In this document: positions 52,149 through 62,270 of the stretch, in pieces
Layout of the letters: every line of letters starts with the position of its first letter
Position numbering within the stretch: position 1 is the first letter of the stretch
Assembly (NCBI RefSeq): GCF_009740395.1
Contig: NZ_WOXT01000004.1
Span: forward strand, 310,001-374,000
Source of the DNA: Noviluteimonas gilva
GTDB lineage: Bacteria; Pseudomonadota; Gammaproteobacteria; Xanthomonadales; Xanthomonadaceae
Direction of reading: 5' to 3'
Length of the DNA stretch: 64,000 nucleotides
The notes under the pieces: generated by a model
Seen by the model: only the letters and a program-made list of their open reading frames with translations
Database searches by the model: none
Told to the model about the DNA's origin: nothing
Program-made: the position numbers and the translations under genes

Positions 52149-53858
52149 TCATGCCGCCGTCGCCGCGTCGTCCTCCACGGACGCGGCGGCGGCGTGCACT
52201 TCGCGCATGGCGCGGCCGGACGGGTCGGCGCGCGAGGCAAAACTCGCATCCCACGCGATCGCCGCCGGCGACGAACACGCGATCGACTTCCCACCCGGCA
52301 CCGTGCGCGCCGCGGCATCTCCCGGGAACATCGCTTCGAACCACCGCCGATACAGGAACGCTTCCTTCGTCTCCGGCGTGTTGATCGGAAACCGCTCTGC
52401 CGCCGTCGCGAACTCCGCGTCGCTCACTTCGCGCGCGGCATAGGCCTTCAGTCCGTCGATCCAGCCGTAACCGACGCCGTCGCTGAACTGCTCCTTCTGC
52501 CGCCACAGGATCGCGTCGGGCAACGCGCCTTCGAAGGCCTCGCGCAACACCGCCTTTTCGATCTTCCGCCCGCCGCGCATGCGCACGCACTTCGCATCGG
52601 CATCCATCGCCATCGCGACATCGAGGAACGCCAGGTCGAGGAACGGCACGCGCGCCTCCACGCCCCAGGCCATCATCGCCTTGTTGGCGCGCGCACAGTC
52701 GAACTGGTGCAGCGCATCGAGCTTCCGCACGGTCTCGGCGTGGAATTCGCGCGCATCCGGCGCTTTGTGGAAATACAGATAGCCGCCGAAGATCTCATCG
52801 GCACCCTCGCCCGACAGCACCATCTTCACGCCCATCGCCTTGATGCGGCGCGCGAGGAGGAACATCGGAGTCGACGCGCGGATCGTCGTGACGTCGTAGG
52901 TTTCTACATGGCGGATCACGTCGGGCAGCACATCGAGCCCTTCTTCCAGCGTGTAGGTGAAGCCGTGGTGCACCGTGCCGATCGCGTCGGCGGCCACCTG
53001 CGCGGCGGCGAGGTCGGGCGAATCCGCCAGGCCGATCGCGAAGGAATGCAGGCGCGGCCACCAGGCTTCGCTGCGGTCGTCGTCTTCGACGCGGCGCCGC
53101 GCATGCAAGGCCGCGCACGCCGCGACGATCGAGGAGTCGAGCCCGCCGGACAACAACACGCCATAAGGCACGTCGCTCATGAGTTGGCGATGGACGGCGG
53201 ATTCGAGCGCTTCACGCAACGCGGGCGGTGAGACTTCGACGCCACGCGTTGCCTCGTATTCGCGCCATGCACGGTCATGAAACGCAACGAGCGCACCGGT
53301 CGCGCTGTCGTACCAATGCCCGGGCGGAAACACCGCGACATCGGCGCAGACGCGCACGATCGCCTTCATCTCCGACGCGACCCACAAGCGCCCGTCTGCA
53401 TCGTGGCCCCAGTACAGCGGACACACACCGAGCGGATCGCGTGCGATCACGACACGCTGCTCAGCCGCATCCCACAGCGCGAACGCGAAGATGCCGTTGA
53501 GGCGCGCGAACGCCTCCGGCCCGGCTTCGCGATACAGCGCGCTGACGATCTCGCAATCGGAGCCGGTCGTGAACGCGTACGGCGCCGCGAGCCCATCCTG
53601 CAATTCGCGATGGTTGTAGATCTCCCCGTTGACCGCGAGCACGAGCGCGCCGTCGGCCGACACGATCGGCTGCGCGCCGCCGGCCGGGTCGACGATGGCC
53701 AGGCGCTCGTGCACGAGCATCGCGTGGGCTTCGGCATGCACGCCGGACCAGTCGGGCCCGCGATGCCGTTGCAGCGCGGAGAGGGACAACGCGAGCGGGC
53801 GCAGCGGACGCAGGTCCGCGTGCGGGCGCGCGTCGAAGATGCCGAGGATGGAACACAT
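52149..53858 (-). CDS. asnB: Asparagine synthetase, glutamine-hydrolysing
   Basis: The 569-residue product has the N-terminal glutaminase domain with catalytic Cys2 (MCSILGIFD), QRHRGPDWSG and NGEIYNH. The synthetase domain has the ATP pyrophosphatase loop LLSGGLDSS, then LSGEGADEIFGGY. It makes asparagine from aspartate, glutamine and ATP. Length and motifs are those of AsnB. It stands behind a 240-nt leader with an Asn-rich peptide and hairpin (see 53898 and 53951), which suggests control by asparagine supply. Confidence 0.97.
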   Translation of the reverse strand: MCSILGIFDARPHADLRPLRPLALSLSALQRHRGPDWSGVHAEAHAMLVHERLAIVDPAGGAQPIVSADGALVLAVNGEIYNHRELQDGLAAPYAFTTGSDCEIVSALYREAGPEAFARLNGIFAFALWDAAEQRVVIARDPLGVCPLYWGHDADGRLWVASEMKAIVRVCADVAVFPPGHWYDSATGALVAFHDRAWREYEATRGVEVSPPALREALESAVHRQLMSDVPYGVLLSGGLDSSIVAACAALHARRRVEDDDRSEAWWPRLHSFAIGLADSPDLAAAQVAADAIGTVHHGFTYTLEEGLDVLPDVIRHVETYDVTTIRASTPMFLLARRIKAMGVKMVLSGEGADEIFGGYLYFHKAPDAREFHAETVRKLDALHQFDCARANKAMMAWGVEARVPFLDLAFLDVAMAMDADAKCVRMRGGRKIEKAVLREAFEGALPDAILWRQKEQFSDGVGYGWIDGLKAYAAREVSDAEFATAAERFPINTPETKEAFLYRRWFEAMFPGDAAARTVPGGKSIACSSPAAIAWDASFASRADPSGRAMREVHAAAASVEDDAATAA

Positions 53859-53897
53859 GGACGGACTCCTTTGGATTTTCGGAGGCCGCTAACGCAG

Positions 53898-53924
53898 GAA
53901 GCCCGCGCTTGCGGCGCGGGCTTC
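53898..53924 (-). promoter_or_regulatory. Hairpin of the candidate asnB attenuator
   Basis: A perfect 11-bp stem (GAAGCCCGCGC with GCGCGGGCTTC) and a 5-nt loop lie 39 nt upstream of asnB. The 5' arm contains GCCCGCG (53921-53915), complementary to CGCGGGC (53979-53973) just after the Asn codons of the leader peptide. The two pairings are mutually exclusive, as in terminator/antiterminator pairs. No U-run follows, so termination may be Rho-assisted, or the hairpin may act otherwise. Confidence 0.55.
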
Positions 53925-53950
53925 GGGCGAATCTTTGCGTGGAAAACGTT

Positions 53951-54028
53951 CTATCGCACGCGCGAATCGCCGGCCCGCGGGAGGCTGGCGTTATTCGAAT
54001 TGCGATTATTGGCGCGGGTGAACGTCAT
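53951..54028 (-). CDS. Asparagine-rich leader peptide of asnB
   Basis: A 25-codon frame on the minus strand (ATG 54028, TAG at 53953-53951) encodes MTFTRANNRNSNNASLPRAG followed by DSRVR. Asn occupies positions 7, 8, 10, 12 and 13, five of seven residues. This lies directly upstream of asparagine synthetase, the exact pattern of amino-acid-biosynthesis attenuators. AATCGC within the Asn codons (54007-54002) can pair with GCGATT (53970-53965), a possible protective stem. A ribosome stalled for lack of Asn-tRNA would free CGCGGGC to pair with the hairpin arm. The frame is seen; the regulation is inferred. Confidence 0.7.
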   Translation of the reverse strand: MTFTRANNRNSNNASLPRAGDSRVR

Positions 54029-54035
54029 GGCACCG

Positions 54036-54064
54036 ACCCTAGCGCTACGCGGGGGACTACGCAA
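54036..54064 (-). promoter_or_regulatory. Candidate sigma-70 promoter of the asnB leader
   Basis: On the minus strand TTGCGT (54064-54059) and TAGGGT (54041-54036) are 17 nt apart, a good -35/-10 pair. The expected transcription start is about seven nt on, at or next to the ATG of the leader peptide (54028), so the leader peptide mRNA could be leaderless. Confidence 0.5.
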
Positions 54065-54102
54065 CCCCACCCCAGCCCTCCCCTGCTTGCAGGAGAGGGA
54101 GT
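54061..54102. repeat. REP-like palindrome between dapE and the asnB leader
   Basis: The sequence CCCTCCCCTGCTTGCAGGAG followed by AGGG forms an imperfect palindrome. It resembles the abundant CCC-rich extragenic palindromes of Xanthomonas and Lysobacter genomes. It sits at the dapE stop and may also act as its transcript end. Copy number in this genome is unknown. Confidence 0.45.
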
Positions 54103-55230
54103 TCAGGCGAGCAACCGGCGCATGAGGGCGAGATACAGCCCCGGCAGCGCTTCGAGGTCGGCGATCGACACATGCTCATCGACCTTGTGGATGCTCGCAT
54201 TCACCGGCCCGATCTCGACGCACTGCGCGCCGAGCGGCGCGATGAAGCGCGCGTCCGAGGTTCCGCCGCCCGTGCTTTCCTCCGGCGCAGAACCTGCGAT
54301 TTCAGCCAGCGTCTCGCGCGCCGCGGCACGCAGCGGACCTTCGGGCGTGTGGAACGGTTCGCCACCGCGATGCCAGTGGATCGCGTACTCGAGCGCGTGC
54401 TTGCGGAAGATCGCTTCGCACTCGGCTTCCAGCTGCGCTGCGCTCCAGTTCGGGTTGAAGCGCAGGTTGAACAAGACCTGCATCTCGCCGGGGATCACGT
54501 TGTTCGCGCCGGTGCCCGCGTGGATGTTGCTGATCTGCAGGCTGGTGGGCGGGAAGGTTTCGAAGCCTTCGTCCCATCGGCGCGCGACCAGTTCGTCGAG
54601 CGCGGGCAAAGCCTGGTGGATCGGGTTGCGTGCCTTGTCGGGATACGCGACGTGGCCCTGGATGCCGCGAATCGTCATCGTCGCCGACAAGGTGCCGCGA
54701 CGGCCGACGCGCAGTAGATCGCCAAGTTTCGCTTTCGACGACGGCTCACCCGTCACGCACCAATCGATGCGCTGCCCGCGTTCGCGAAAGACGTCGGCGA
54801 CGCGACGCACGCCATCGATCGCATCGCCCTCCTCGTCCGACGTGACAAGCATCGCGACGGTGCCGCGATGTTGCGGATGCGCGGCAACGAACTGCTCCAG
54901 CGCGACGACGAACGCCGCGACGCTGCCCTTCATGTCCGCCGCGCCGCGGCCGTACAACAGCCCGTCGCGTTCGGTCGGCACGAACGGATCGCTCGCCCAC
55001 GCCTCGCGCGGACCCGACGGCACGACATCGGTATGACCGAGGAAAACGAGGACCGGCCCCTCGCTGCCGTGCGTCGCCCACAGATTGTCGACGTCACCGA
55101 AGCGCAGCGATTCGCACGCGAAGCCCGCACGCGATAGACGCGACGCGAGCATCGCCTGGCAGCCGTCATCGTCCGGCGTCACCGACGCGCGTTCGATCAG
55201 CGCCTTCGACAACGCCAACACGTCGCTCAC
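54103..55230 (-). CDS. dapE: Succinyl-diaminopimelate desuccinylase
   Basis: The product is 375 residues from a GTG at 55230 that overlaps the preceding stop (GTGA). Metal-site motifs are [22 protein letters not shown] and [11 protein letters not shown], with a late His region ([10 protein letters not shown]). DapE removes succinate from N-succinyl-L,L-diaminopimelate, giving the precursor of lysine and peptidoglycan. It acts two steps after DapD, encoded in the same operon. Confidence 0.96.
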
Positions 55231-55586
55231 TGGCGCACTCCGAACCGCAGCTTGAAGCCGTTGTCGGTGAATCCCTGCGTGACCGTGCCGTCGTCGGTGA
55301 CGACAACCGGGCGACGAATCAGCTGCGGATATTCCTTCAGCAGCAACTGCCATTCCGGATCGCTGCCCGGCGTCTTGCGCCCCTGCGGGAGCTCGCGCCA
55401 CGTCGTCGACGACTTGTTGATCAGCGCATCGAACCCGCCGGCCTGCTTCGCCCAATCGGCGAGCGTGGTGGCCGCCTGGCGATTGTCGCGATAGTCGACG
55501 AAGGTGTACGCGATGCCGAAGCGCTCCAACCAGTTGCGCGCCTTCTTGCAGGTGTCGCAGTTGGACAGGCCGTAGAGAGTGGTCAT
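55227..55586 (-). CDS. ArsC/Spx-family protein, YffB-like
   Basis: The 119-residue thioredoxin-fold product has the motif [16 protein letters not shown] near the N-terminus and RRPVVV in the anion-binding part. This is typical of YffB (Spx/ArsC family) rather than true arsenate reductases, and the usual neighbour of dapD and dapE in gammaproteobacteria. It overlaps dapE by 4 nt and follows dapD by 3 nt. Its function is unknown; glutathione binding is reported for homologues. Confidence 0.9.
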
Positions 55587-61987: not shown

Positions 61988-62010
61988 TCCACCGCGACAA
62001 GTGAACGACG

Positions 62011-62038
62011 AAAAACCCGCGGGTGACCGCGGGTTTTT
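62011..62038. terminator. Intrinsic terminator of tsf
   Basis: Twelve-bp stem (AAAAACCCGCGG and complement), GTGA loop and TTTTT tail, 24 nt after the tsf stop. The symmetric A/T runs make it bidirectional. The following stretch to 62270 shows no gene or recognisable element. Confidence 0.9.
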
Positions 62039-62270
62039 CTTTGTCTGTGAATGGCCGTTGATCGTGGCGTTGGCTTGAGGCACGATGCCTCGCGTTGGAC
62101 CGATGCAAGAGTTCGTGGCGGAAGGCGTGGTCGAGTTGGAGCCTTCGCGTCAATCAGTGCGATTGGGAGACCGACACTCCCAGGCGGCCCGATGGCTCTC
62201 CGCCATGAGCCAGTTCCCGACCAAGCCACACGGTTGACTAAGGGAATACTTCTACGGCCCGGACCAACAC

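Follow-up and report, generated by a model that had tools for sequence, protein, structure and literature searches.

A putative asparagine-responsive leader-peptide attenuator upstream of asnB in Lysobacterales

The his, trp, leu, ilv, thr and phe operons of enteric bacteria are controlled by ribosome-mediated attenuators. The region upstream of asnB described here shares their plan, in that a leader ORF has clustered codons for the amino acid that the pathway makes, antiterminator and terminator stems overlap, and a biosynthetic gene lies downstream. Unlike the enteric systems, it would sense asparagine and precedes a stand-alone gene; its leader mRNA is probably leaderless, its region 2 is part of the coding sequence of the leader, and no separate 1:2 pause hairpin is established for leaders of this type. 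The charging of tRNA-Asn is also sensed by T-boxes of Firmicutes, which bind the tRNA directly and involve no leader peptide; one such T-box was reportedly induced by reduced Asn-tRNA charging. The asnB leader would respond to the same signal, but it differs from a T-box in that it would act through a leader peptide, and no Rfam family matches it. In Sinorhizobium meliloti, according to the available part of its description, the transcript of the trpL attenuator (rnTrpL) starts at the leader ATG (PMC7298713); that system differs from the asnB leader in concerning Trp, in being alphaproteobacterial and in having been shown experimentally. A full-text literature search found no asparagine leader peptide or asnB attenuation, its coverage stopping short of the survey by Lopatovskaya (2010), so an earlier prediction is possible. 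A term search of the main text of PMC2965389, PMC1183508, PMC1262725 and PMC4833913, so far as these texts were accessible, did not return the word asparagine. The mechanism is a known one, and asparagine would be a new signal for it as far as the searched literature extends.

We refer to the entire 64 kb stretch of DNA analysed as the window; all elements of the locus lie on its minus strand. The leader ORF, MTFTRANNRNSNNASLPRAGDSRVR, spans 54028-53951, with its ATG at 54028-54026, 25 sense codons and a TAG stop at 53953-53951. Its regulatory codons at 54010-53990, AAT AAT CGC AAT TCG AAT AAC, encode NNRNSNN, in which five of the seven codons specify Asn (four AAT and one AAC). Region 2, CGCGGGC at 53979-53973, within the leader codons P-R-A, is the predicted 5' strand of the antiterminator and is complementary to GCCCGCG in the 5' arm of the hairpin that follows. 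That arm, region 3 (GAAGCCCGCGC, 53924-53914), is shared, since it can pair either with region 2 as an antiterminator or with region 4 (GCGCGGGCTTC, 53908-53898) as a terminator. The loop between regions 3 and 4 reads directly as CGCAA (53913-53909), and region 4 is the 3' arm of a terminator-like hairpin (53924-53898) that has 11 pairs and no mismatches and has lost its U-run. The initial annotation had described a 25-codon frame with five Asn codons in seven and a segment at 53979-53973 complementary to the 5' arm of a perfect 11-bp hairpin before asnB; direct reading of the minus strand reproduces both exactly.

The gene that we infer to be regulated is asnB (52149-53858, start 53858), which encodes a 569-residue asparagine synthase B (NF006949, E 1.1e-249). 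It starts about 40 nt beyond the hairpin and has its own Shine-Dalgarno sequence, AGGAG, at 53866-53870. Upstream of the leader, a -35 box (TTGCGT, 54059-54064) and a -10 box (TAGGGT, 54036-54041) are predicted, the latter 17 nt after the former and 7 nt before the leader ATG. The -35 box adjoins a GC-rich, palindromic, REP-like stretch (54065-54099) that separates the leader promoter from dapE, occurs once in the window and is probably the dapE terminator or a repeat. A similar stretch is found between leader and asnB at two other loci (L012 and L035). The upstream neighbour on the same strand, dapE (succinyl-diaminopimelate desuccinylase, 54103-55230), has an approximate 5' end: its ORF as listed begins at 55455 and the family match near residue 77-80.

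Read from sequence, the leader, the two alternative stems with their covariation, the promoter pattern and the T-run terminator of the relatives make up what is very probably a ribosome-mediated transcription attenuator, which would adjust asnB to the supply of charged tRNA-Asn. RNA polymerase would begin at or beside the leader AUG, and the leader would be translated from the extreme 5' end of the transcript. When Asn-tRNA is scarce, the ribosome would stall in the Asn cluster and leave region 2, which lies 11-17 nt past the last Asn codon, free to pair with region 3, and transcription would continue into asnB. When Asn-tRNA is ample, the ribosome would pass region 2 and reach the stop codon, regions 3 and 4 would pair, and transcription would end before asnB. 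In the window the antiterminator has 7 pairs and the terminator 11, so the former must win by timing.

The leader stands out within the window. NNRNSNN is the sole place in all six frames where at least five of seven codons specify Asn, and among the 401 short ORFs (10-60 aa) only the leader exceeds three Asn per seven codons. To follow it in relatives, we searched 149 genomes of the family for AsnB and obtained matches at E <= 0.001 in 138, some of them only to distant amidotransferase-like proteins. Upstream DNA was taken for 130 asnB loci, comprising 115 close orthologues (69-100% identity) and 15 divergent genes (61-64%); G023, G142 and G143 were left out for a partial gene or a contig end, while the gene at L122 is incomplete and that at L130 split in two frames. 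Defined as at least three Asn in eight residues, an Asn-rich leader precedes 114 of the 115 close orthologues, with L103 as the sole exception, and none of the 15 divergent genes. A first scan found 112 of these leaders; the other two, at L012 and L035, lie farther upstream, behind the GC-rich palindromic insert.

By the same measure, the leader occurs at each of the 39 loci that carry a label of the order among 80 named ones. The leader-bearing genera include Arenimonas, Lysobacter, Luteimonas, Thermomonas, Pseudoxanthomonas, Xanthomonas, Stenotrophomonas, Rhodanobacter, Dyella, Fulvimonas and Frateuria; the named and unnamed sets overlap, some loci being from the same genomes. The leader is also present at L155, labelled Pseudomonadota only, and absent from L139, L149 and L162, which carry other labels in the same identity range. 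Among the 37 loci of other groups (L174-L210), L184, L188, L189 and L201 reach four Asn in eight and L208 and L209 three; upstream G+C at L188, L189 and L201 is 0.29-0.33, a composition at which Asn codons are common. L184 (1320-1500), from a MAG labelled Rubrivirga with an upstream G+C of 0.69, carries four Asn codons in eight (NLTNANRN), with a GC-rich hairpin and a run of eight T directly before an asnB of the same type, and is possibly an independent Asn attenuator in another phylum. A class-wide search of 185 genomes found full-length AsnB of this type (at least 61% identity) in only 4, so that level offers no leaders for comparison.

Codon usage in the leader points to conservation of the residue. 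The 596 leader Asn codons of 98 loci divide into 295 AAT and 301 AAC, while AAT accounts for 40 of the 365 Asn codons in 44 asnB genes, so Asn is kept and its codon varies. Among the 41 leaders sharing the C-terminal motif of the window's leader, 37 retain one particular Asn codon and 39 another. At majority-Asn codons the third base differs in 0.46 of pairs, a modest excess over the first (0.29) and second (0.27).

We then compared the downstream hairpins. Our T-run, codon and folding counts cover the same 98 loci, which remain after leaders without a called hairpin or promoter are left out; the perfect-stem rule called no hairpin in the leader-bearing L098, L100, L101, L104 and L122. The best 8 nt at the hairpin end contain at least five T in 92 of the 98, a count that may include T of the 3' arm. 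A stricter count over the 9 nt after the called arm finds at least five T in 50 of 98, lower because the arms often end in paired T. Examples of such hairpins are aaaacccgcatc-GGCC-gatgcgggtttttt (L064) and aaggcctgcact-GCGA-agtgcgggcctt-TTTGTTTT (L004). In two alignments, A1 and A2, of 33 and 31 sequences chosen from the two main leader types, 94.2% and 98.9% of terminator-stem cells are paired; slid by 1-3 columns, terminator and antiterminator stems taken together pair in 21-59%. Both sides have changed in 8 of 12 terminator pairs in A1 and 3 of 12 in A2. Median distances are 33 nt from the last Asn codon to the stop and 30 nt from the stop to the hairpin.

The window copy departs from this form. 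Its best 8-nt stretch holds 3 T, which bears out the reported absence of a U-run; L002 likewise has 3, and L005, L019, L020 and L025 also lack a T-run. In the lineage of those last four loci, the hairpin has little or no T-run, and the terminator 3' arm can pair with a further copy downstream. The T-run in 92 of 98 loci suggests that the ancestral form is an intrinsic terminator and that the loss in the window is recent and local. The place of the window copy among the attenuators thus leans on its orthologues, its own stem being present and its U-run absent. With the T-run missing, termination in the window species may be inefficient or need NusG or Rho. The family, with its T-runs, need not invoke the possible dependence on Rho or on translation that was suggested earlier.

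Two other readings address this difference directly. In one, leader and hairpins in the window's genus regulate without intrinsic termination, by Rho/NusG, by a pause or by coupling of leader and asnB translation. The T counts speak for it (3 in both L001 and L002, 5 in L003, compared with five or more in 92 of 98), as does a T-run terminator-like site at 62010-62039, which, as a consensus match only, suggests that the organism does use T-runs. However, the hairpin is perfect and the antiterminator kept in all three loci of the genus (L001-L003), the asnB start, some 40 nt away with its own Shine-Dalgarno sequence, is not visibly masked, and most relatives have standard terminators; we consider this reading unlikely, though worth keeping in mind. 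In the other, selection has relaxed in the window's genus, asnB is no longer under strong control, and the attenuator is decaying. Two of the three copies of the genus lack the T-run, the stop lies four codons farther downstream (GAT TCG CGC GTG CGA TAG, where relatives have GAT TAG), L002 has an Asn-to-His change, and asnB is absent from two of five sampled genomes of the genus, the window's own included in the five. Yet the Asn cluster, both stems and the promoter boxes persist in all three genomes that retain asnB, and we likewise give decay a small chance of being correct.

The antiterminator was examined through the pairing of leader codons with the hairpin arm. In the 41 loci matched by the peptide motif, with 66 other hairpin-bearing leaders outside this count, an Arg or Gln leader codon agrees with the 5' arm base in every case, with C accompanying CGG at 28 loci and T accompanying CAG at 13. 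At 11 of these 13 the facing base of the terminator remains G and forms a G-U pair; since the terminator 3' arm is unchanged there, the change follows the antiterminator. The leader thus swaps an amino acid and so preserves the antiterminator pairing. Mapped onto a tree of asnB from 34 loci and an outgroup, the CGG/CAG covariation takes 5 changes, at least 3 of them forced by well-supported branches; seven of the 41 loci are outside the tree, namely L017, L024, L029, L033, L034, L068 (start unrecognised by the motif) and L130. The tree yields 3 independent pairs (sign test p 0.25), too few for significance.

For the antiterminator stem as a whole, 90.0% (A1) and 89.2% (A2) of cells are paired, versus 22-42% when the stem is slid, and its covariation score exceeds all 500 shuffles. 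A count of two pairs changed on both sides, as seen in each alignment, is also reached in 108 and 119 of the 500 shuffles, and the further pair types in A1 are reached by 499 of 500, so that the covariation signal comes mainly from one pair. At 78 of 98 loci the duplex of region 2 with its own arm is stronger than mismatched combinations, and at 58 of 98 it beats all 20 shuffles. In leaders ending in RARPMRVCD before the stop, region 2 repeats the terminator 3' arm almost letter for letter, and a comparable pair, GGCGGG in the leader and CCCGCC in the arm, is visible by eye at named Rhodanobacteraceae loci. The RARPMRVCD-type leaders (A2) also contain GCGCG-AATAAT-CGTGC, which could fold into a short stem whose loop holds two Asn codons, possibly a 1:2 pause hairpin.

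Single-strand folding with the ribosome footprint removed reproduces the switch. With the ribosome at the Asn codons, the antiterminator forms at least 5 pairs in 96 of 98 loci; with the ribosome at the stop, the terminator forms at least 6 pairs in 96 of 98. The folding fails at L019 and L025, where another hairpin is picked. The antiterminator excludes the terminator and, in this model, would be freed by a stalled ribosome. The attenuator logic for asparagine that the initial annotation had put forward is accordingly supported at the sequence level by leaders at 114 of 115 loci and by two stems that both pair with compensatory changes. Alignment of asnB upstream regions showed the Asn frame to be conserved, and neither loss of the Asn codons nor loss of hairpin pairing emerged in close relatives.

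We next considered where the transcript begins. The promoter pattern, TTG..., [TC]ANNNT and ATG in promoter spacing, is complete at 99 of 112 leader ATGs. Because this pattern guided our choice of the leader start, the fair control is the set of 444 other ATGs in these regions, of which 1 carries it. Random positions match in 71 of 5600. The spacer between -35 and -10 is 17 or 18 nt in 98 of the 99 and 19 nt in one, and 6 or 7 nt separate the -10 box from the ATG in 97. Nine of the 112 leaders have no recognised -10 box and four more no -35 box. The predicted transcript start thus coincides with the leader ATG (~54028) to within one or two bases. It lies upstream of 53951, a start downstream of which would have spoken against the attenuator, and the leader mRNA is probably leaderless. 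Pairing with the anti-Shine-Dalgarno sequence averages -4.1 before the leader versus -6.7 before asnB, and reaches -5 or lower at 32 of 103 leaders versus 100 of 103 asnB genes. A short 5' UTR is possible, some -10 boxes (CAGGAT, TAGGGT) resembling a Shine-Dalgarno sequence. The promoter rule recognised 3 of 16 named loci (Rhodanobacter, Dyella, Fulvimonas, Frateuria and less well placed members); most of the 14 such loci inspected have, by eye only, TTGC and a -10-like stretch at a similar distance. The sequence-based case for a leaderless start is strong for the window's family, and the pattern goes mostly unrecognised in Rhodanobacteraceae.

A leaderless start followed by termination would set free a short leaderless mRNA, comparable with rnTrpL as presented in the accessible part of its report (PMC7298713), and the terminated leader RNA or peptide could then also act in trans, as rnTrpL/peTrpL does in Sinorhizobium. 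We regard such a role as quite improbable here, since the peptide is highly variable in its N-terminal half and the Asn codons together with the overlapping RNA stem account for the conservation. As for a chance Asn-rich frame before an ordinary terminator, terminator-like sites are indeed common by chance (15 found versus 13.3 expected in 19.5 kb), but a leader at 114 of 115 loci, unique in 64 kb and with covarying stems, rules this out for practical purposes. A riboswitch or T-box was rejected for want of a relevant Rfam match: at gathering thresholds the window has one match, a tRNA elsewhere, and six loci searched at E <= 1 gave three weak, unrelated matches, all below gathering.

Searching 200 genomes of the order with model R2 gave 26 matches with E < 1e-12 among the matches listed, which extend to E ~1.7e-4 under stricter filters. 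Twenty of the 26 were examined as loci, and asnB is adjacent in all 20; five more are at asnB loci already sampled, and the remaining one, G291, was left out. R2 has no match in the window's own genome, where model R1, run on 14 genomes, did match. A second target of the Asn leader in the order was therefore rejected, the strong matches examined all being at asnB. Of the weaker R2 matches, the 16 regions examined comprise 14 Ile/Val/Leu-type leaders and two bare terminators (L262, L266). These LVLVLIT-type leaders (L251-L261, L263-L265) precede ilvC, leuA or ilvD where the gene is visible, the genes being recognised by eye. They share the plan of the Asn leader, with region 2 in the last codons, then the stop and a T-run terminator, and are weak matches to its model, but differ in their Ile/Val/Leu codons, in the genes that follow and in a TTGACA-like box upstream.

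The genes for asparagine supply bear on what such a leader would sense. AsnRS is over the cut-off in all 44 genomes tested and GatA in none of the 44; given this combination, free asparagine should be the substrate from which tRNA-Asn is charged, and its limitation would then be reported directly by the leader. Two genomes of the window's genus, G039 and G075, have no asnB match. In 13 of the 18 genomes searched, no asparagine synthase passes the NCBIfam cut-off, G002 having a weaker match and G007 and G047 being incomplete; AsnA is found in none of the 18, and GatA is likewise below the cut-off. The genomes without asparagine synthase, two of them in the window's genus, are possibly asparagine auxotrophs. 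In X. citri, asnB is listed, in the part of the study available, among amino-acid genes whose expression DSF signalling lowers in planta, alongside thr and his genes (PMC6337780); this is compatible with attenuation and is no test of it.

The broader proposal, that these loci form a class of Asn attenuators conserved through Lysobacterales and starting on a leaderless mRNA, has in our estimate about an even chance of being right. In such a class, the first ribosome would load at the 5' AUG as it exits from the polymerase, which would fix the timing between ribosome and polymerase with no need for a Shine-Dalgarno site or, perhaps, for a pause hairpin. If true, asparagine would become one of the few amino acids known to act through leader-peptide attenuators, and the control of asparagine synthase in much of a bacterial order would be accounted for. 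The probable leaderless start would, moreover, offer a clean natural test of ribosome-polymerase synchrony in attenuation.
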